Shown here in pieces: positions 11,746-32,328 of a stretch of 36,882 bases of DNA. Source of the DNA: Bacillota bacterium (GTDB lineage: Bacteria > Bacillota > Clostridia > Lachnospirales > CAG-274); NCBI GenBank assembly GCA_017444985.1, contig JAFSVK010000014.1, forward strand, positions 1 through 36,882, read 5' to 3'. A program made the position numbers and the translations under genes. Within the stretch, counting starts at the first letter, position 1. Each line of letters begins with the position of its first letter. Under the pieces are notes generated by a model. That model ran no database searches. It saw only the letters and a program-made list of their open reading frames with translations, and was not told the DNA's origin.

Positions 11746-11976
11746 TGTTGTAAACACTATAGCAAGGACAAACAGCTTTGAAAAATACCTACAGAGAGTC
11801 GGGAGGGTGGAAACCGACGGCAATTGCAAAGTGAATATCACCTTGGCTGTGCCTGACCGAAATACAGTAGACTCGGGCGTAAGTTCTGCGTTAAAGGACA
11901 TTAAAGTGAAGCTTTATGCTTAATAACGGGTGGTACCGCGCCGCAGGCGTCCTGTTCGGGACGGTTGCGGCTTTTT
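11746..11976 (+). ncRNA. T-box leader responding to tRNA-Ile
   Basis: A tRNA-sensing leader that ends or continues transcription of ileS depending on tRNA-Ile charging. The conserved T-box sequence GGGTGGTACCGCG is at 11928-11940. The stem I region has AGAGAGTCGGG (around 11793-11803) and TGGAAACCGA. The specifier loop GTGAATATCACC places an ATC isoleucine codon at 11837-11839, matching the downstream gene. The competing terminator is a GC-rich stem at 11940-11971 followed by five T. Unlike ordinary T-box operons, about 220 nt, mostly a MITE-like element, separate the terminator from the ileS start. Confidence 0.9.
11940..11976 (+). terminator. T-box regulated terminator
   Basis: GCCGCAGGCGTCC pairs imperfectly with GGGACGGTTGCGGC across a TGTTC-type loop, then TTTTT (11972-11976). 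Its 5' arm overlaps the T-box sequence, as expected for a terminator/antiterminator switch. Confidence 0.85.
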
Positions 11977-12196: not shown

Positions 12197-15100
12197 TTGT
12201 ACGAGAAAGTAAACAAAGACCTAAACTTTGTAGACAGAGAAAAAAGCGTTTTAAAATACTGGCAGGAAAATGATATTTTTGCCAAATCCATAGAGGCAAG
12301 AAGGAAGGCACCTGTTTTCACCTTCTATGACGGCCCTCCTACGGCAAACGGCAAGCCTCATATAGGCCATATACTTACAAGAGTTATAAAGGACCTTATA
12401 CCCAGATACAAGACTATGAAGGGTTATAAGGTGCTCAGAAAGGCAGGATGGGATACCCATGGTCTTCCCGTGGAGCTTGAGGTGGAAAAGCAGCTTGGTA
12501 TAAGCGGTAAGCCCCAAATAGAAAACTACGGCGTAGAGCCTTTTATCAAAAAGTGTAAAGACTCCATATTTACCTACGAGTCTCTCTGGAAGGATATGAG
12601 TGAGAGAGTAGGCTATTGGGCGGATATGGAAAACCCTTACGTTACCTACCACAATGAATATATAGAGTCGGTATGGTGGGCACTTAAACAGATATGGGAT
12701 AAGGGTCTTTTGTACAAAGGACATAAGATAGTACCCTACTGCCCTCGCTGCGGTACCGCTCTTTCATCACACGAGGTAGCTCAGGGCTACAAGAATGTAA
12801 AGGAAACATCTTGTACCGCAAGATTTAAACTTAAGGGTAAGGATAACGAATATTTCCTTGCTTGGACAACAACACCTTGGACATTGCCCTCAAATGTGGC
12901 TCTTTGTGTAAATAAGCACGAAGAGTATGCAAAAGTTAAGGCTGAGGACGGTAAAATATACATACTTGCAAAGGCACTTTTGGAAACTGCCTTAAAGCAG
13001 GAATATGAGGAAATAGAGACCGTTACGGGTGATAAGCTTGTGGGAGTGGAGTATGAGCCTCTTTTTGACTATGCTTCACCCGATAAAAAGGCTTATTTTG
13101 TTTGTGAGGACGATTATGTTACACTTACGGACGGTACGGGTATAGTACATATCGCTCCCGCCTTCGGTGAGGACGACTCAAGAGTAGGAAAGAGATTTGA
13201 TCTCCCTTTTGTACAGCTTGTAAACGATCAGGGTACTTTCACAAAGGAAGTGGAAGGTCTTGAAGGTGTATTTGTAAAGGATGGAGATAAGGAAATACTT
13301 AAGAGATTGGAAGAAAGCGGAAAGCTTTACGCTGCCATACCTTTTGAGCATGATTATCCCTTCTGTTGGAGATGCGACACTCCCCTTCTCTACTATGCAA
13401 GAGATACTTGGTTTATAGAAATGACCAAAATAAGGGATCGCCTCCTTAAGAATAACGATACCGTAAACTGGATGCCCGACAACATAAAGCATGGAAGATT
13501 CGGAAACTTCCTTGAAAACGTTATAGACTGGGGTCTTTCAAGAGAAAGATATTGGGGTACACCCCTTCCTATTTGGGAGTGTGAGTGCGGATATAAGCAT
13601 ACCATAGGTTCCATAGAAGAACTTAAGAGTATGAGTGATAACTGTCCCGAGGATATAGAGCTTCATAAGCCCTATATAGATAATGTTTATCTCAATTGTC
13701 CCAAGTGTTCAAAGAAGATGAAGAGAGTTTCCGAGGTTATAGACTGTTGGTTCGACTCGGGTTCCATGCCCTTTGCACAGTGGCACTATCCTTTTGAGAA
13801 CAAGGAACTTTTTGATGAAAACTACCCTGCTGACTTCATTTCCGAGGCTATAGACCAAACAAGAGGTTGGTTCTACACCCTTATGGCTATATCCACCCTT
13901 GTTTTTGACAAGAGCCCTTATAAAAACGTTATCGTTCTGGGACATGTTCAGGATAAGGACGGCAGAAAGATGTCAAAGCACCTTGGAAATGTGGTAGACC
14001 CTTGGAGCGTGCTTGACGAACAGGGAGCGGATGCGGCAAGATGGTATTTCTACATAAACTCCGCACCTTGGCTTCCCAACAGATTTTCATCGGATTCCGT
14101 AAGTGAATATCAGCGTAAATTTATGGGTACTCTTTGGAATACCTATGCCTTCTACATACTTTATGCGGATATAGACTCCTTCGATCCCACAAAGTACACC
14201 TTAGATAAAGAGAGTTTGGCACCTATGGATAAGTGGGTACTTTCAAAGCTCAACTCCCTTATAAAGTTTGTGGATGAGAGCCTTGAAAACTACAAGATAA
14301 CAGAGTCCGCAAGAGCTATGGCAGAGTTTGTGGACGAGCTTTCCAACTGGTATGTTCGCCGTTCGAGAGAAAGATTCTGGGGTAAGGATATGCCTCAGGA
14401 CAAGATAAATGCTTATATGACTCTCTACACGGTATTGGAGGCCCTTACAAGGCTTTCGGCTCCTTTTGTGCCTTTTATGTCGGAGAGCATATACAAAAAC
14501 CTTGTGCTTTCCGTTAACAAAAATGCACCCGAGTCCGTGCACCTTTGCGACTTCCCTACCTATGATGAAAGCCTTATAGACAAGAAGCTTGAAGAAAATA
14601 TGGAGCTTGTTCTTTCCATAGTCGTTTCGGGTCGTGCCGCAAGAGAAAAGGCAAATATCAAAAACAGACAGCCCATAGCCGATATGTATGTTAAAACAAA
14701 CGGCAAGCTTGATGAAGAGTACTACGATATAATACTTGATGAGCTTAATGTAAAGAATATAGAGTTTGTGGAAGATACCGCAAAGTTTACCTCCTACTCC
14801 TTTAAGCCCCAGCTTAGGACATTAGGCAAAAAATACGGTAAACTTGTGCCTAAAATAGGTGAATACCTTAAAAACGGCGACGGAAATGCCTTAATGGGTG
14901 AGCTTAACGACCACGGTATAATCAGCTTTGAGGTAGAGGGCACCAAGGTAGAACTCTCACGTGAGGATGTACTTATATCCACCGAACAGGCAGAGGGCTT
15001 TGCCGCAGAGGAGTATAAAAATACCCTTACCGTACTTTCCACCTCCCTTACAAAAGAGCTTATAGAAGAAGGTTTTGCCAGAGAGCTTACAAGCAAGATA

Positions 15101-23900: not shown

Positions 23901-23922
23901 GGGGTGTGACGTATCACACCCC
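23901..23922. other. Intergenic hairpin before dnaE
   Basis: GGGGTGTGA and TCACACCCC form a 9-bp stem with a 4-nt loop. On the minus strand no T run follows (TAAAAAATATCC), so it is not a standard terminator for the upstream operon. It may slow or partly end transcription, or protect an mRNA end. Confidence 0.5.
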
Positions 23923-23927
23923 ATGTT

Positions 23928-24347
23928 TTAGTTTGTTTCCGTATAGTTTACTTTTGCGCTCTCGAGGGCTGCCTTTACCTGCTCGTATACGCCGTTTATG
24001 GCTTTGTCGTTTTCAAGGGTGTAGGTGTAGTCCTTATCCGTATCGAGTACGGAGCCTAAAGAGGCTATATCCGTTTCCTCTCCGTCAAGGGTAACGGTAT
24101 TCTCGGATACTTTGATGCTGTGGCTCTTCTCTTTCGCAGAACCGCTTTCCGTTACGAGGGAAGTTTCTTCTACCGAACTTTCCACCTCGGGCATGGTCCT
24201 TTCGGGCTCTCCGTTACCCGCTCCGAGACCTACACCAAGCCCCAGACCGTGGAAGCCTATAAAAAGTATGGCTGCCGCTATTATAATAAGTATTAGAATT
24301 AAAAGCAGGGGTGAATGTCCCTTTTTCTTTCTCTTTTCTTTAGCCAT
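23928..24347 (-). CDS. Membrane-anchored protein with an ExbD-like extracytoplasmic domain
   Basis: A 139-residue protein: short basic cytoplasmic N-terminus (KEKRKKK), one membrane helix (about 13-32), a Gly-rich and acidic linker, then a ~65-residue domain. This last part (about 75-139: SHSIKVSENTVTLDG, LGSVL, ENDKAING, KAALESAKV) resembles the periplasmic domain of ExbD/TolR in strand-helix order and key positions. The helix lacks the proton-carrying aspartate of ExbD. The second ATG (24347) is chosen because AGGAGG is 9 bp before it; the upstream ATG at 24353 has only 3 bp. It overlaps the previous gene by 8 bp. Function unknown; likely a structural partner of the two genes upstream. Confidence 0.7.
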   Translation of the reverse strand: MAKEKRKKKGHSPLLLILILIIIAAAILFIGFHGLGLGVGLGAGNGEPERTMPEVESSVEETSLVTESGSAKEKSHSIKVSENTVTLDGEETDIASLGSVLDTDKDYTYTLENDKAINGVYEQVKAALESAKVNYTETN

Positions 24348-24876
24348 TTTCATTTTCCTCCTTTTTTGATGTGATTTCGTTTAAGTGTACGAAAAGATTT
24401 GTGTATTTACCTTGAAGGGCTGTGAAGGAGCCCTTTAAAATGTCAAAATCGCTTTTATATATATTGTCGTTGTTGTACTCGAAAAGCAGTATTACGGGGG
24501 AGGAGGCTTCCTTTTTATTAAGTATGTCGGAAATTTTTTCTTTTGTAAACTCTCCCGCTTTATTTACATTTTCCCAGTTGTAGGGGAAACGTAACTCTTC
24601 TCCTTGAGTAAAAATACTTACTACTCTGTTTTCTTCTTGTCTTGTGAGTACTACTCTTATTGTAAGTATATCCGAATATAAGGCATCGTATCTTGCCATT
24701 TCTTCAAGGGCAAGCCTTTTTTCTTCCTTTGCGGCTTCCGCCTCTGCCTCTGCTTTTTTAACCTTTTCGGCAGCTGTTTTGGTACTGCCTATCATTACCA
24801 TAAAAAGCATTATGAATATTACATCAAGAAGGGGGGTGAGGTCGGTGGGTATAAGCTTTCTGCCTTTTGCACTCAT
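24340..24876 (-). CDS. ExbD/TolR-like protein
   Basis: A 178-residue single-pass membrane protein. The N-terminus MSAKGRKLIPTDLTPLLDV leads into a helix (about 15-32) with an aspartate at position 18 in the PLLDVIFIMLFMVMIG motif. This is the place and context of the proton-carrying aspartate in ExbD/TolR/MotB. A coiled coil rich in Ala, Glu and Lys follows (about 33-62), then an extracytoplasmic domain (about 75-170). The coiled coil is longer than in standard ExbD. It overlaps the ExbB-like gene upstream by 4 bp (ATGA arrangement) and the third gene by 8 bp, so the three are translationally coupled. Confidence 0.85.
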   Translation of the reverse strand: MSAKGRKLIPTDLTPLLDVIFIMLFMVMIGSTKTAAEKVKKAEAEAEAAKEEKRLALEEMARYDALYSDILTIRVVLTRQEENRVVSIFTQGEELRFPYNWENVNKAGEFTKEKISDILNKKEASSPVILLFEYNNDNIYKSDFDILKGSFTALQGKYTNLFVHLNEITSKKEENENG

Positions 24877-25442
24877 ATCCTCTTGCCTCCGAAGGTAGCC
24901 TTTTGGTTTTCGGAGGAGTCGTTGAAGTACCTTTCTTCAAGGAATACCGTTATCCTCTCTCCCAAATTCAGCTTTGTGGAAATGCAGGTATCCGCTATTT
25001 TAAATACTATGGTAAAAACTATGCCCCAAAATGTGGAAGTAAGAGCTCCCAAAAATTCGTTGTTTATATCCGCTCCCGAGTTTACTATATTAAGCAGGGA
25101 ACGAACGGTGCCCAGTATTCCCAAAAGGGTGAATATGCCCGTAACATTTGTAAAAAGGGTGTACCAAAAATCCGTTTGTTCCAAAAGCTCCCTGAGGACT
25201 TTATAGCTGCTTTCGCCGTGAGCCCTTTTCAACTCCTTGTCAAAGCTTTTGGAGTTTACGGGCAGGGAGGGCAGTGCCTTCTTATATAATATGGAAGCCT
25301 TTTTCAAGGCTGTGGCGTAAAAAAACAAATTTACCGCCGCAATTATGAATATTATAGCATCGTATTGAAAAAAATTTGCAAAAAGATTCAAACTATCATC
25401 TCGCTTTATACTTTTATACAGTGTTTTGCACCGATGTAGCAT
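24873..25442 (-). CDS. MotA/TolQ/ExbB-family proton channel protein
   Basis: A 189-residue protein with the three-helix layout of ExbB/TolQ: helix 1 (about 26-46), a cytoplasmic loop, helix 2 (about 92-118) with LGILGTVRSL and helix 3 (about 128-150) with ALTSTFWGIVFTI. Both match the conserved LGLLGTV and A-x-x-T-x-x-G motifs. A short basic tail closes it. First gene of the operon. The start is uncertain: a TTGTAA-17-TATACT promoter at 25444-25472 would place the RNA start inside this frame, so a downstream start such as TTG at codon 18 is possible. ExbB/ExbD pairs normally energise outer-membrane TonB systems, which a Gram-positive cell should lack. Confidence 0.85.
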   Translation of the reverse strand: MLHRCKTLYKSIKRDDSLNLFANFFQYDAIIFIIAAVNLFFYATALKKASILYKKALPSLPVNSKSFDKELKRAHGESSYKVLRELLEQTDFWYTLFTNVTGIFTLLGILGTVRSLLNIVNSGADINNEFLGALTSTFWGIVFTIVFKIADTCISTKLNLGERITVFLEERYFNDSSENQKATFGGKRI

Positions 25443-25791: not shown

Positions 25792-28700
25792 ATGAAGAGA
25801 CGACTCTTATCATTGGCATTGGCAGTATCGATGATATTCTCATCTGTTGTTGTCAGAGCCGATGAAGTTGTGTCCGAGGATGTGTCCGTTGACGTATCGG
25901 CTGTTGACGAAGTTGAAACAGGTAGTTCCCTTTCAACCTCAAGTACTTCCGTTAAGTTAAACGAGGACTCCCAAGGACCGAGTTGGAGTACCACATCTCC
26001 TTGGCTTGCCACCGTTTACGGCGATGCAGGCGGTCAGGCAAAGATCACAAATTGGAATAATCCCGATTCAACGGAATTTTTCCATGATGCCGACGGTAAT
26101 GTGGTATACCCCTATGATGTTCAGGAAGATGGCAGCAATGTCAGAATGAGAATGGGTATATTCAAATCCGACAACATCACCCCCGAAGATGATGCTTCTT
26201 ACGGAAAGATAGCATCTTCGTCTTCCGGTATAACATACTATTATCAAGAGTTGACAGCGGATGATGATTTCACACTTTCCGCTACGGCACATGTAAATGC
26301 CCTCAACTGTATAGATGATGCGGCTAATCAGAACAGAAATCAGGTTGGTTTCGGTTTATCCGTAAGAGATGTGGTTATACCTTTGGATCTTACATCTAAC
26401 GATGCTAAGAAGGCAGATGCAATAAATGCAGGACCTGTTAAGATGTACAATGCCGTTGACGGCGATGATACAACAAAGATGGGCTTTGCATGGGTAATGC
26501 AGGCTGCAAAACTCACACAGTTCGACAGTGAAAAAACCGTTGCACCTACTCCCGGAAAGGATTACAAATTATCCATAAAGAAGTCCGGTACAGTTTACAC
26601 ACTTACTTTTGATGGAGAAGAGACTACCGTAGATGCAGCCGAATACGGTTTTAAAGACGATCTTTACGCAGGTCTTTTCGTAACAAGAGCAGCTGATGTT
26701 ACATTCTCTAATGTAAGACTCTCCAAAGCGGGGGCAGCTGTTGAGGTGGGTGACTGGGAATCAAACGGAAACGGTTTCAACGGTCAGACACCCGACAACT
26801 CCACATCAAAGGCTAACCAGCTTGACTACATGATAAGTGAAGTCAACGAAGACAACTCCGAGATCTATCTTTCAATAGATCCCACAGCTGTAGAGGATGG
26901 AAAGGGTAAGTTCTCCACCGGTGAGGATTCATATTACTACAGAGCAATGCAGATCCCCGCAGGTGAAGACTTCACACTCACATCGAACATGAGCACAATG
27001 ATAGACATCAATGCATCCGGCACATCGGGCTCAAATGTCAATCAGAGAGGTGCAGGTATCATATTATTCGACCACAAGTATGTTAAGAATGCAAATGATG
27101 CCGAGCTTAAAGCACAGACAGGTCCCAGTGTATTTATTGGTACAGGTCTTACAAGAATGGAAACACAGCCCTTCGTTATAAGAGTAAATGACGGAGCAGG
27201 CAAGATCGACTCCGAGACACTTTTTGAGACAGGTAAGGCTCTTGCGGCTTACGCAGGACCGTATGCCGTTAAGGTAAAGAAGAGCGGAGACGTATTAAAG
27301 ATAAAGATTACCGATACAGAAGGTAACGTATATGAAAAAGATCTCGATGTAACGGGTATCTTTGAAAACAATCAGTATGTGGGCTACTGTGTGGCAAGAG
27401 ACGGTGCCGTTAAGGTTACCGACAACAAGGTAGTTGCAGGATCCAAGAAGGTAGCTTCCTTCGAAGTAGCTTCAATGCCTACAAACAGCACACTTTACAG
27501 CACACAGAAATTCGACCCTTCGGGTATGGTACTTGATGTTAAGTATACAGACGGTACTACAGGTAAATTATCGGGTGATGATGAGGACGACCTTGGCGAA
27601 ATGTCCTTCCTTGGATTTGACGATGCCACAAACAAGTCCTTCACAGATATAGGCGAGAGAACACTTAAGATAAGCTTAGGTTCCGTATCTAAGGATATCA
27701 CAATAAATGTTCGCCCTATAAAGGTAACAAATATAAACATAGCTTACCAGCCCGTTAACACAGAGTACTTAACAGGTGCACTCTTTAGCGATACGGGTAT
27801 CTCCGCTACATATACTCTTGAGGATGGATCTGTTTCCAACCTTGCAAAGGCAAACAGAGTATATACTGTAGACGGTACAGAGCTTAATTCCGACACTCCT
27901 TTTGCTAAAGCGGGAGAGAGAACAGTTAAGCTTGCATTCGGTAACGACCCTAACATAGATCCCAACGGCGTATACGGAGATATTCCCGTAACCGTTAAGG
28001 CTGCTACACTTCAGGGTATCGATATCATGATAAAGGCTTCAAAGACACAGTACTGTGTAGGTGAGAGCCTTGATACAGCAGGTCTTGTAGTACAGGCTGT
28101 TTATTCCGTAGACGGTCAGACGGGCTTTAACTATGTTGTACTCGATCCTTCCGAATACACGGTAACGGGTCTTGACACATCTAAGGCTGTAGCTTCACAG
28201 ACCCTTACAATAGTTTACAACAGAGATACAACAAAGACTTGCACATACGATGTACAGGTAATAGATGTATCCGTATTGGGATGCGAGATATCTTACTATC
28301 CCAGACTTACATACCAGATTGGCGAAGAGTTCGATCCCAGCGGTCTTGCTCTCCAGATAATCTACAACAACGGTAATATCGAAGCCATAGATTATGACGG
28401 ATATTACATGCTTAAGGGTGCGGATGTCGTATTCTTAGACAAGGCAACAGGTACCGAAGAGGCAGCTTCCTTAGAAGCTCTTGAGGCGGCTAACTACTAT
28501 GTTGACCTTTCAGACTTCGATACAAGTGCAGCAGGTTACTCAACTATTCATGTTGTAACAAGAAACTACGGCAAGTTCGATCTTACCGCATCTGTTGTTG
28601 CAGAAAAGAACTACTACTGGAAGGCAGCTTGCTTCGGTGCTTCTTCCTTAGGTGTTAAAGCCGAGAACGAAGCTTCTTCCTTAACTCTTACAAAGACAGA

Positions 28701-31700
28701 CGGAAGCCAGTATGTAAACGGCAAGGAAGCTTTCGAGATAGCTCCCGAACTTATGGTTGACGGCAAACTTAACGATGTAGAAAAAGTAAACGTTCGTTCA
28801 TGGGACGGTTCCGGTAAGGTATCCGGTGACCAGGACGGTATAGCTTACTACTACACAAGGGTTGACGGCAACAAGAACTTCCAACTTTCGGCTGATATAA
28901 CAGTCAACAACTATGTTATAGATCCCGATACTGCAGACGGCAAGGCTCAGATAGCGGCTAAGCAGGCTGAAGTATTAAAGACAACAGGTGAGTCCATAAG
29001 CGAAATAGAGGCTCTTGACAGACTTCGTTCGGGTCAGGAATGCTTCGGTATTATGGCAAGAGACGTTATCCCTCTTGCAGGCGGTGTTTATGACGGCGTT
29101 TACAAGGGTGGTATAACAAACCACATGACAACAGATATCGACTCTGCTTTAATAGACGAGACCACAGGCGAGCCTATGGATCTCTATGAAGCATGGAAGA
29201 AGGGCGTTGTTCTTACAGATGCTGCAGGAGATACCTATAGAGTAGCAAGCGGTGATGTTGAAAATACTTTCGCTTCCAACATAGTTATCGCAGGTGGATG
29301 TACAGATTCCACCTTCCCTACAGATCCCACATCTTCAAGCTACTATCGTAAGTCTATCATGAACAGAATAAACATCATGATAAGAACCGGTGTTATCGCA
29401 ACAAACGGTGGCGGTACTCGTGTTGGTATCAAGTCCACCACAACTTCCGTACCTAAAAAGGGAGATAAGTACAATGTAACATTACAGAAACTCAACAGCG
29501 GTTTCTTGATCACAACTTACGACTACCAGACAGGTACAACAAATACTCAGTACGACAGAAACGACGAGCTTGACTCCGAGGGCGTACTCAACATTCAGAA
29601 TCCCGACAATATCTGGGTAGGTTTCTTCGCATCCAGATGGGCTGATATCGATGTTTCAAACATCACTCTCTACGAGAACGATCCTTCTACCGATAAGGTA
29701 GACGTTCCCAAGACAGAGGAAGAGTACACACCCAGACTTCAGGTTGGTTCAAGTATGTTCACAACAACACCTAACTATACCCTTTATGTTAAGGCTAACA
29801 ACCCTTCGGGCGGTCTTATGACTGTAACATTAAACGGTAATGTTGTTTACAAGAACGTATTGGTTTCCAAGAAGTACGGCGGATATCTTCTTAACCTTAA
29901 GGAGAACTCCATAAACGATGTAACACTTGCTTACACACCTTCAACAGTAGACAATTGTACATCTTACGATACTGTAATATCACGTTACAAGATCACACAA
30001 ACAAATCTTAAGGACCTTAAGGCCCTTTACGTAAGCCCCGACGGTGGCGTTACGGGTGACGGTTCAAGAGAAAATCCTCTTGACCTCGAGTCAGCTATTG
30101 GTTTCGCCGATTTCGGTACAGAGATCATAATGCTTGACGGTACATACAACTTAAGAAACAGCGAAGCTGCAGCTATAGATATAAGCGAGCTTATGTCGGG
30201 TACAGCTGTTGCTCGTAAGACACTCAGAGCCGATACCGAAACAGATGCACATCCTGTTATCGACCTTGAAAGCAAGTATGCAGGTATACTTTGTGCAGGT
30301 AACTATTGGAACTTCGAAAACTTTGCTATAACAAAGTCAGGTCCCAATATGAAGCCTTTCCATATCGGTGCAAACAACTGTATAGTAAGAGGACTTACAT
30401 CTTATCGTAACCAGGATACAGGTATCCAGGTTTCAAGAATAGTATCTACACAGTATACTATCGATCAGTGGCCTTCCAACAACCTTTTCATAGATTGTGA
30501 GGCTTATGACAACTGCGATCCCGCAATGCAGAATGCCGACGGTTTTGCTTCCAAGCTTACCGTAGGTTACAACAATGTATTCGAGGATTGTGTATCTCAC
30601 CATAACTTAGACGATGGTTGGGATTGTTACACCAAGCTTTCCACAGGACCTATAGGACCTGTTACACTTGAAAACTGTATTTCTTACAGAAACGGTATAG
30701 AGCTTAGAGATGACGGTATCGAGTCTCCTTGGGCATCTCCTACCGCATCGGGTAACGGTTTCAAGGTTGGTGGCGAGAACATTATGGTTAAACATTATGT
30801 TAAGGACTCTATCGCCTTTGACAACAGAGCAAACGGTGTAGACTCCAACAACAACCCCGGTTTCAAACTCAGAAACGTTATTTGTATGAACAACTTAGGT
30901 TCTAACTTTGCTCTTTACTCAGGTTCGGGCGAAGTGCTTGCAGACTCCCAGGGTAACTACAGAGAACCCGCTTCTCTTCCCGGCGGAAGCAACAGACCTT
31001 ACAAGTTCAACTACGATTTCAAGGGTGCTGTTTCCATAACAGGTGCATCCGCAGACCAGATCGGTTCCTTGACCGATGATACCATCTACGGAAATGCCAA
31101 CGACACACCTTTGTTGAATTCCACAAACTACTTTATCTATGAAAATGGTAAAGACGCTGTAAGCAAGTACTACGATGAGAACGGTCAGGCTGTAGAGGAT
31201 GTACTTACAACCGATAAGCTTGCAGAAATGTTCTTAAGTATCGATAAGTACAACACAGCACTTGACAGCATGAACTTCTACTCAAGAAATGCCGACGGTA
31301 CATTCGACCACGGTACATATCTTGTAAGAACAGAAGCTTATGTACACGATGCAGGTGATGAGGTAATCTTACCTAACATCGGAGAAGAAACACAGGCAAC
31401 CACATCTCAGTCAGGTACCGAAGCAACTACCGAGAGAAGCCACAGCGGTGGCGGCGGTGGCGGGGGTGGCGGCGGCGGTAGCGCAAGAGTTGCTACTACC
31501 ACAACTACCACAGAAGCTACTACAGCAGCAGTTGTATCCGGCGGAAGCGATGCGGATGACGATACAGAAGACACAACAACATCCTCCAAGACAGGTTTAA
31601 GATACGCTCTTAATCCTCCTAAGGATACAGGTGTTGATGTATACTTCGACGACCTTGAAGGCGTAGCTTGGGCAGAAGATGCTATAAACGCTCTTGCCAA

Positions 31701-32328
31701 AGTAGGCGTTGTAAAGGGTACAGCCGACAGAACATTCAGCCCCAGATTCTCCACAAAGAGAGCAGACCTTGTTCTTACAATAGTAAGAGCATTGGGACTT
31801 GAAGCTAATGTTGACAATGATTTCACGGATGTTGATGATTATGCATACTATGCACACGCTCTTGCAGTAGCAAAGGCATACGGCATAGCAGAGGGTTATC
31901 CCGACGGTACATTCAAGCCCGAAGATCAAATAACAAGACAGGATGTTATGGTTCTTGTATCCAGAGCTTATGAGGCTATGGGTGTAGAGCTTGATAAGGA
32001 CGAGTCCGTTCTTGACAAGTTTGCAGACAACGAAGATATCAGCGGATATGCAAGAGAGCATGTTGCGGCTCTTGTAAACGCAGGTGTTGTTTCAGGCGAT
32101 AACTTAAGCAGAATCAATCCTTTGAACAACATAACAAGAGCAGAGACAGCTATAATAGTTAATGCTCTTTACGACACAGCAGTTGAGGTTAAGGCAGAGG
32201 TTGACGCAGAGGCAGCAGCAGAAGCTGCAGCAGCTGCAGAGACCGAAGCAGCTACAGAAGAGACCACAGAGACGGTTGAGACCGAATCTACAGAGGAAAC
32301 TACTTCTGAAGAAACTACAGCAGCGTAA
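25792..32328 (+). CDS. Giant SLH-anchored pectate lyase (PL9 family)
   Basis: A 2178-residue cell-surface enzyme that should cleave pectate by beta-elimination. Signal peptide 1-24 (cut after VVVRA). Two jelly-roll-like modules (about 62-312 and 318-547), four Ig-like Big_3 domains (about 551-640, 643-740, 741-825, 826-940), a third jelly-roll-like module (941-1300), the PL9 beta-helix (about 1408-1850), a Thr/Gly linker with 11 glycines, three SLH domains (about 1948-2130) and an acidic Thr/Glu tail. By comparison with Pel9A the calcium ligands are Asp1583, Asp1607, Asp1608 and Asp1611 (NADGFA, DDGWD) and the catalytic base is Lys1658 in GNGFKVGG. SLH domains bind secondary cell-wall polymer. 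Strong ribosome site, structured leader and own terminator suggest high expression. The sugar-binding role of the repeated modules is inferred. Confidence 0.93.
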   Translation: MKRRLLSLALAVSMIFSSVVVRADEVVSEDVSVDVSAVDEVETGSSLSTSSTSVKLNEDSQGPSWSTTSPWLATVYGDAGGQAKITNWNNPDSTEFFHDADGNVVYPYDVQEDGSNVRMRMGIFKSDNITPEDDASYGKIASSSSGITYYYQELTADDDFTLSATAHVNALNCIDDAANQNRNQVGFGLSVRDVVIPLDLTSNDAKKADAINAGPVKMYNAVDGDDTTKMGFAWVMQAAKLTQFDSEKTVAPTPGKDYKLSIKKSGTVYTLTFDGEETTVDAAEYGFKDDLYAGLFVTRAADVTFSNVRLSKAGAAVEVGDWESNGNGFNGQTPDNSTSKANQLDYMISEVNEDNSEIYLSIDPTAVEDGKGKFSTGEDSYYYRAMQIPAGEDFTLTSNMSTMIDINASGTSGSNVNQRGAGIILFDHKYVKNANDAELKAQTGPSVFIGTGLTRMETQPFVIRVNDGAGKIDSETLFETGKALAAYAGPYAVKVKKSGDVLKIKITDTEGNVYEKDLDVTGIFENNQYVGYCVARDGAVKVTDNKVVAGSKKVASFEVASMPTNSTLYSTQKFDPSGMVLDVKYTDGTTGKLSGDDEDDLGEMSFLGFDDATNKSFTDIGERTLKISLGSVSKDITINVRPIKVTNINIAYQPVNTEYLTGALFSDTGISATYTLEDGSVSNLAKANRVYTVDGTELNSDTPFAKAGERTVKLAFGNDPNIDPNGVYGDIPVTVKAATLQGIDIMIKASKTQYCVGESLDTAGLVVQAVYSVDGQTGFNYVVLDPSEYTVTGLDTSKAVASQTLTIVYNRDTTKTCTYDVQVIDVSVLGCEISYYPRLTYQIGEEFDPSGLALQIIYNNGNIEAIDYDGYYMLKGADVVFLDKATGTEEAASLEALEAANYYVDLSDFDTSAAGYSTIHVVTRNYGKFDLTASVVAEKNYYWKAACFGASSLGVKAENEASSLTLTKTDGSQYVNGKEAFEIAPELMVDGKLNDVEKVNVRSWDGSGKVSGDQDGIAYYYTRVDGNKNFQLSADITVNNYVIDPDTADGKAQIAAKQAEVLKTTGESISEIEALDRLRSGQECFGIMARDVIPLAGGVYDGVYKGGITNHMTTDIDSALIDETTGEPMDLYEAWKKGVVLTDAAGDTYRVASGDVENTFASNIVIAGGCTDSTFPTDPTSSSYYRKSIMNRINIMIRTGVIATNGGGTRVGIKSTTTSVPKKGDKYNVTLQKLNSGFLITTYDYQTGTTNTQYDRNDELDSEGVLNIQNPDNIWVGFFASRWADIDVSNITLYENDPSTDKVDVPKTEEEYTPRLQVGSSMFTTTPNYTLYVKANNPSGGLMTVTLNGNVVYKNVLVSKKYGGYLLNLKENSINDVTLAYTPSTVDNCTSYDTVISRYKITQTNLKDLKALYVSPDGGVTGDGSRENPLDLESAIGFADFGTEIIMLDGTYNLRNSEAAAIDISELMSGTAVARKTLRADTETDAHPVIDLESKYAGILCAGNYWNFENFAITKSGPNMKPFHIGANNCIVRGLTSYRNQDTGIQVSRIVSTQYTIDQWPSNNLFIDCEAYDNCDPAMQNADGFASKLTVGYNNVFEDCVSHHNLDDGWDCYTKLSTGPIGPVTLENCISYRNGIELRDDGIESPWASPTASGNGFKVGGENIMVKHYVKDSIAFDNRANGVDSNNNPGFKLRNVICMNNLGSNFALYSGSGEVLADSQGNYREPASLPGGSNRPYKFNYDFKGAVSITGASADQIGSLTDDTIYGNANDTPLLNSTNYFIYENGKDAVSKYYDENGQAVEDVLTTDKLAEMFLSIDKYNTALDSMNFYSRNADGTFDHGTYLVRTEAYVHDAGDEVILPNIGEETQATTSQSGTEATTERSHSGGGGGGGGGGGSARVATTTTTTEATTAAVVSGGSDADDDTEDTTTSSKTGLRYALNPPKDTGVDVYFDDLEGVAWAEDAINALAKVGVVKGTADRTFSPRFSTKRADLVLTIVRALGLEANVDNDFTDVDDYAYYAHALAVAKAYGIAEGYPDGTFKPEDQITRQDVMVLVSRAYEAMGVELDKDESVLDKFADNEDISGYAREHVAALVNAGVVSGDNLSRINPLNNITRAETAIIVNALYDTAVEVKAEVDAEAAAEAAAAAETEAATEETTETVETESTEETTSEETTAA
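31447..31479 (+). repeat. Eleven-codon glycine run (GGN repeat)
   Basis: Eleven consecutive GGT/GGC/GGG codons encode a polyglycine hinge between the lyase and the SLH domains, flanked by Thr-rich segments. Length changes in steps of three would keep the frame. Confidence 0.9.

Follow-up and report, generated by a model that had tools for sequence, protein, structure and literature searches.

Three open reading frames, here termed B, D and C, lie one after the other on the minus strand of the window, the whole 36,882-nucleotide stretch of DNA that was analyzed (contig JAFSVK010000014.1 of assembly GCA_017444985.1). A sequence-only reading had described them as a three-gene ExbB/ExbD-like set with overlaps of 4-8 bp, and the set itself was confirmed. 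The 4 bp overlap of B with D also stood, and the overlap of D with C was corrected to 14 bp, being 8 bp only when counted from the second Met of C, which seems to be the start taken in the earlier reading. Coordinates of the genes and of the surrounding features are given in Table 1.

Table 1. Features of the trio locus and of its surroundings, in positions of the window.
Feature	Position	Strand	Description
gene B	24873..25442	minus	189 aa ORF, ExbB/TolQ/MotA-like channel subunit
gene D	24340..24876	minus	178 aa ORF, ExbD/TolR-like subunit
gene C	23928..24353	minus	141 aa ORF, third subunit
hairpin	23901-23922		between C and dnaE; perfect 9-bp inverted repeat, arms GGGGTGTGA / TCACACCCC
dnaE	23870-20190	minus	same strand as the trio, after C; named from its own sequence
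SLH protein with Big_3 domain	25792-32328	plus	2178 residues; divergent from the trio
T-box leader	11750-11957	plus	Rfam RF00230, 95.6 bits; class I tRNA synthetase gene downstream at 12197

The T-rich tail of the hairpin was found on the plus strand only, and the end of the operon was therefore left uncalled. In the SLH protein, a pectate-lyase-like stretch was noted, by eye only.

The product of gene B matched Pfam MotA_ExbB at 9.9e-5, slightly under the curated cut-off. When the host genome (98.5% complete) was searched with PF01618 (MotA/ExbB family), B was the sole match, with a score of 23.4, above the cut-off. A profile built from 14 relatives of B matched solved MotA (1.6e-7) and TolQ (1.4e-4), as well as PomA and ExbB chains, the best solved match being MotA (8gqy). 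Hydropathy placed hydrophobic helices at residues ~24-46, 95-120 and 131-149. Invariant residues among the 14 relatives were G108, L110, G111 and T112, and A133, L134, S136, T137 and G140; Thr112 and Thr137 aligned with both TolQ motif threonines, Thr145 and Thr178 (counted along the alignment), which are marked together with TolR Asp23 in a 2026 review (PMC12905483). The three helices, together with the Pfam and solved-chain profile matches, uphold the ExbB/TolQ-like assignment of the first gene.

For D, the match to Pfam ExbD (3.6e-5) also fell slightly under the curated cut-off. In a profile comparison, LTPLLDV of D aligned with VTPFIDV, the motif of E. coli ExbD/TolR, and Asp18 with the motif Asp. 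Asp18 was kept in 107/107 relatives having a residue at that position, so the essential Asp proposed for the second gene passed the test of invariance. The AlphaFold2 model (mean pLDDT 88.9) predicted a single helix at 14-68, taking in the membrane part and a stalk; the linker of ExbD/TolR is described as unstructured and ~20 residues long (PMC12905483), whereas the stalk predicted for D is a rigid helix. The predicted outer domain (71-167) had the order beta-beta-beta-alpha-beta-alpha-beta, and its best structural match was TolR (5by4, Z 9.8, rmsd 2.9 over 86), which exceeds the RNase H-like background of ~Z 8. Structural matches to HIV integrase and to ribosomal chains were taken as the common RNase H-like arrangement. 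All of the 5:2 family features checked were present in the trio, namely homology of the channel subunit, the pore threonines of helices 2 and 3, and the pore-helix Asp.

The third protein, C, has a Lys-rich N-terminus, an apolar membrane helix (15-34), a Gly-rich/disordered linker (~36-74) and an outer domain (75-141). Its AlphaFold2 model had a mean pLDDT of 75, and pLDDT values of 83-95 in the blocks of the outer domain. When the predicted outer domain was searched with Foldseek, the three best chains were E. coli ExbD (8vgd, 8p9r, 8vgc); with VIA-align, ranks 1-6 were all ExbD/TolR, the best being 8p9r (Z 9.4, rmsd 1.9 over 67). TonB structures were absent from the structural match list, an absence that carries no weight, and other folds may match as well. 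The C of the window had no Pfam match, and Pfam ExbD was reached at E <= 0.01 by 4/100 C members (best 5.1e-5). By hhalign, C against ExbD/TolR was weak (E 0.055), the C and D profiles gave no match to each other, and comparison with TolA by sequence gave no useful match. The best PDB sequence match of the C profile, FliL, ran through the membrane helix and the low-complexity region, and was treated as compositional. Judged from the predicted model, C would thus be an ExbD-fold protein whose sequence link to that family is weak.

In the core of the C membrane helix, no D, E or H was found in 100 relatives, and polar residues were almost absent; C therefore cannot carry protons in the manner of ExbD. 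Likewise, the SHLS motif, by which TonB and TolA bind their motor (PMC12204202), was not found in the helix core of the 100 relatives. The earlier description of an ExbD-like outer domain without a helix Asp was borne out, in the predicted fold and in the 100 relatives respectively. The best reading of C is a lineage-specific third subunit, neither TonB nor a proton-carrying ExbD. C may be a force receiver replacing TonB, as had been suggested; a heterodimeric stator role is equally compatible, because its outer domain is ExbD-like, and because the SHLS motif and a useful TolA match are both absent.

Omp85 was not found in the host genome (controls positive in 8/14 genomes), nor was TonB_C (controls positive in 7/14 genomes), and a diderm genome was rejected on these two negative searches. 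In eight further carriers, Omp85 was again not found. SLH proteins, lgt and the T-box all lie within the window. As judged from this gene content, the monoderm context that the sequence-only reading had drawn from the neighbouring genes agrees with the genome searches, and the host is probably single-membraned.

Conservation of the trio was assessed in the loci of the order search and of a species-genome scan combined, where B, D and C were in order on one strand in 102/109 loci. Contig ends or ORF calling explained 5/7 exceptions: B lay within ~1 kb of a sequence end in four, and at L107 an ORF-calling artefact was found, with B, D and C all there. At L150, C was 5.6 kb distant, and at L082 no C was detectable. 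Between B and D the median spacing was -4 bp, and between D and C it was +14 bp. Two consecutive copies of C were present in L021, L028 and L087. Median dN/dS among close relatives was lowest for B (0.09), followed by D (0.15) and C (0.18), which indicates that all three are maintained by purifying selection. The co-occurrence proposed for Clostridia genomes is thus conserved; scattered order, an Asp that is not conserved and a diderm genome had been named as grounds for rejecting the set, and none of the three was found.

A B-profile scan of 84,980 species genomes gave 385 relatives. Nearly all of the best 80 of these 385 carry the label Ruminococcus, Lachnospiraceae, Oscillospiraceae or that of an unnamed member of the Clostridia; a large number came from the rumen, and cultured carriers among the same best 80 include R. 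flavefaciens XPD3002 and R. bicirculans 80/3. One trio-bearing contig (L162) was labelled Alistipes senegalensis and has a neighbourhood resembling Ruminococcus loci; it is probably a mislabelled or contaminated bin. Within the order, D alone matched in 13/295 genomes and the D profile in 40/295 (36/295 at E < 1e-10). Loci from the D search of the order and the B search of the host family had the B-D-C set again in those read out. In the family sample of R. bicirculans, D was matched in 13/148 genomes. In a phylum sample of 398 genomes, D matches outside the order were weak or marginal, several being of ordinary short ExbD length, and C matches were few and weak; this sample does not bound the distribution, as each family was thinly represented in it and the carriers in Ruminococcus were not picked up. 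A B sequence search of the host's own family identified no other carrier in 36 other genomes, and the trio may therefore have been horizontally acquired, or be a lone survivor in that family. The distribution of the trio is patchy.

No conserved fourth gene was identified, as clustering of the neighbours over 95 loci gave clade-local partners only, which points to the trio as a self-contained module. In one Ruminococcus clade, a ROK gene was upstream and patatin-like and metallophosphoesterase genes were downstream, and in another clade aro genes (aroB/aroA) were beside the trio; the ROK, patatin, phosphoesterase and aro names were read from the sequences, with no family search. In five loci of rumen Lachnospiraceae (L089, L091, L092, L093, L094), a hybrid histidine kinase of ~930 residues (7TM sensor, HisKA, HATPase, receiver, Hpt) was directly downstream of C, which suggests a signalling link in that clade; B of these loci was among the closest to B of the window (47-49% identity). 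Genes for a MoxR-like AAA ATPase, a DUF58 protein and a transglutaminase were upstream of the trio in L021. A further downstream protein, secreted-looking and of ~340 aa, was shared by L021 and L028. No SLH or surface-enzyme gene recurred beside the trio in the 95 loci. The link that had been drawn to the giant SLH surface protein was therefore not sustained, the neighbours being lineage-specific, and a role in surface-polymer handling is unsupported, since neither the flanking surface protein nor the other neighbours are conserved.

We read the trio as a functional pmf motor of the ExbBD/TolQR/MotAB 5:2 family in a single-membraned cell, with a probability of roughly 0.6. The five-to-two assembly, the passage of protons and the generation of torque are what we infer from the family, by analogy. 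In such a motor, five B subunits would build a ring, with the D helices inside the B pore and protons carried on Asp18, and the stiff helical stalk of D would carry the outer domain out into the cell-wall zone. C would belong to the same complex, sitting at the rim of the B ring or pairing with D; through its flexible Gly-rich linker and its outer domain, it would pass movement to a component of the cell wall or surface, or would anchor the motor on it. In a TonB-like arrangement C would bind outside the ring, though without an SHLS motif, and as half of the stator it would share the pore, leaving one Asp instead of two. The load of the motor may differ by lineage. Taken further, the trio could be a dedicated proton-driven mechanical motor of the single-membraned envelope, in which C, Asp-less, SHLS-less and with an outer domain of ExbD type, would be a new class of transducer working on the Clostridia cell wall or surface; this is put forward tentatively, at somewhat short of even odds.

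The role of C is where the readings of a working motor divide. C might be a second stator-type subunit and no force transducer, in a D:C heterodimer whose helices share the B pore with one Asp and whose outer domains pair like ExbD/TolR dimers, as a variant of AglR-AglQ-AglS. The predicted ExbD outer fold of C, coded together with B and D, is consistent with this, as are the lack of an SHLS motif for binding at the ring edge, the two C copies in L021, L028 and L087, and the precedent of AglRQS, where one TolQ-like protein is joined by two that are ExbD/TolR-like (PMC3169522). However, the C helix is without D, E or H in 100 relatives, the linker of C is long, flexible and Gly-rich compared with the rigid stalk of D, and the C and D sequence profiles do not match; we regard this arrangement as possible but doubtful, with the balance leaning against it.

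Two further explanations dispense with a working motor. The hybrid histidine kinase with a 7TM sensor that directly follows the trio in five Lachnospiraceae loci from the rumen would fit a regulated ion channel, or a sensor of pmf or of the cell wall, in which D and C would use their outer domains to gate proton entry and report to a kinase or adjust pH, and no load is moved. The kinase is limited to that clade, however, with unrelated neighbours elsewhere, and the family members listed in a 2026 review (PMC12905483), MotAB, GldLM, ZorAB, Ton and Tol, are all presented there as motors that depend on pmf; a channel or sensor is considered unlikely. Decay is less probable still. Occasional Ton systems of monoderm Clostridia were recorded in a 2025 survey (PMC12204202), which considered them likely to be without function; these cases may or may not include the present trio, and together with the patchy distribution they would suit a vestigial or laterally acquired Ton system without function. 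Against it stand the purifying selection on B, D and C, the invariant Asp and Thr residues, the gene order kept across deep divergence, the lack of TonB_C in the host, and a third protein that we do not take for TonB, and we hold a non-functional Ton system to be very improbable.

The motor family itself is known, and the existence of Ton and Tol motors is accounted for by an outer membrane that has to be energized. What looks undescribed, in the literature searched, is a selected, fixed three-gene set in monoderms with an Asp-less, SHLS-less third subunit of predicted ExbD fold; literature on ExbD/ExbB with Ruminococcus or Lachnospiraceae yielded no title or abstract describing the trio. A trio under selection in Clostridia of the gut and rumen that lack Omp85, cultured Ruminococcus among them, raises the question of which task an ExbBD-type motor has in a cell with no outer membrane, and offers a natural test of the purpose of the third subunit in such motors. 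The trio is directly testable in the isolates R. bicirculans 80/3 and R. flavefaciens XPD3002.

Compared with known systems, the trio belongs to the same channel family as MotA-MotB, PomA-PomB and ZorA-ZorB. Unlike in MotA-MotB/PomA-PomB, the outer domain of D is nearest to TolR, and a flagellar stator was rejected because no second MotA-family gene was found in the host genome. Zorya was also rejected: PADLOC gave D against ZorB at 0.0074 only and no match for B or C, and the adjacent genes are dnaE and the SLH protein, with no Zor effector genes. AglR-AglQ-AglS, the gliding motor of Myxococcus, is likewise coded as a set of one TolQ-like protein and two of ExbD/TolR type, AglQ and AglS matching Pfam ExbD strongly, at 6.7e-18 and 3.1e-15 (PMC3169522); unlike AglQ/AglS, the C of the window has no Pfam match and no helix Asp, and Myxococcus is a diderm.

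With ExbB-ExbD-TonB, the trio shares a B that has both pore threonines, a D that has the essential pore-helix Asp, and a membrane-anchored third protein with a flexible linker and a small outer domain. Unlike TonB, C is without the SHLS motif, and its predicted outer domain resembles that of ExbD. The gene for C almost always accompanies those for B and D, whereas tonB infrequently adjoins exbBD (PMC12204202). The host differs from Ton carriers in having no detected Omp85, and the stalk of D is long and helical, against an unstructured linker of ~20 residues. As for TolQ-TolR-TolA, C is without a useful TolA sequence match and the host without detected Omp85, but B aligns with TolQ, the outer domain of D is closest to TolR (5by4, Z 9.8), and the gene order Q-R-A parallels B-D-C.
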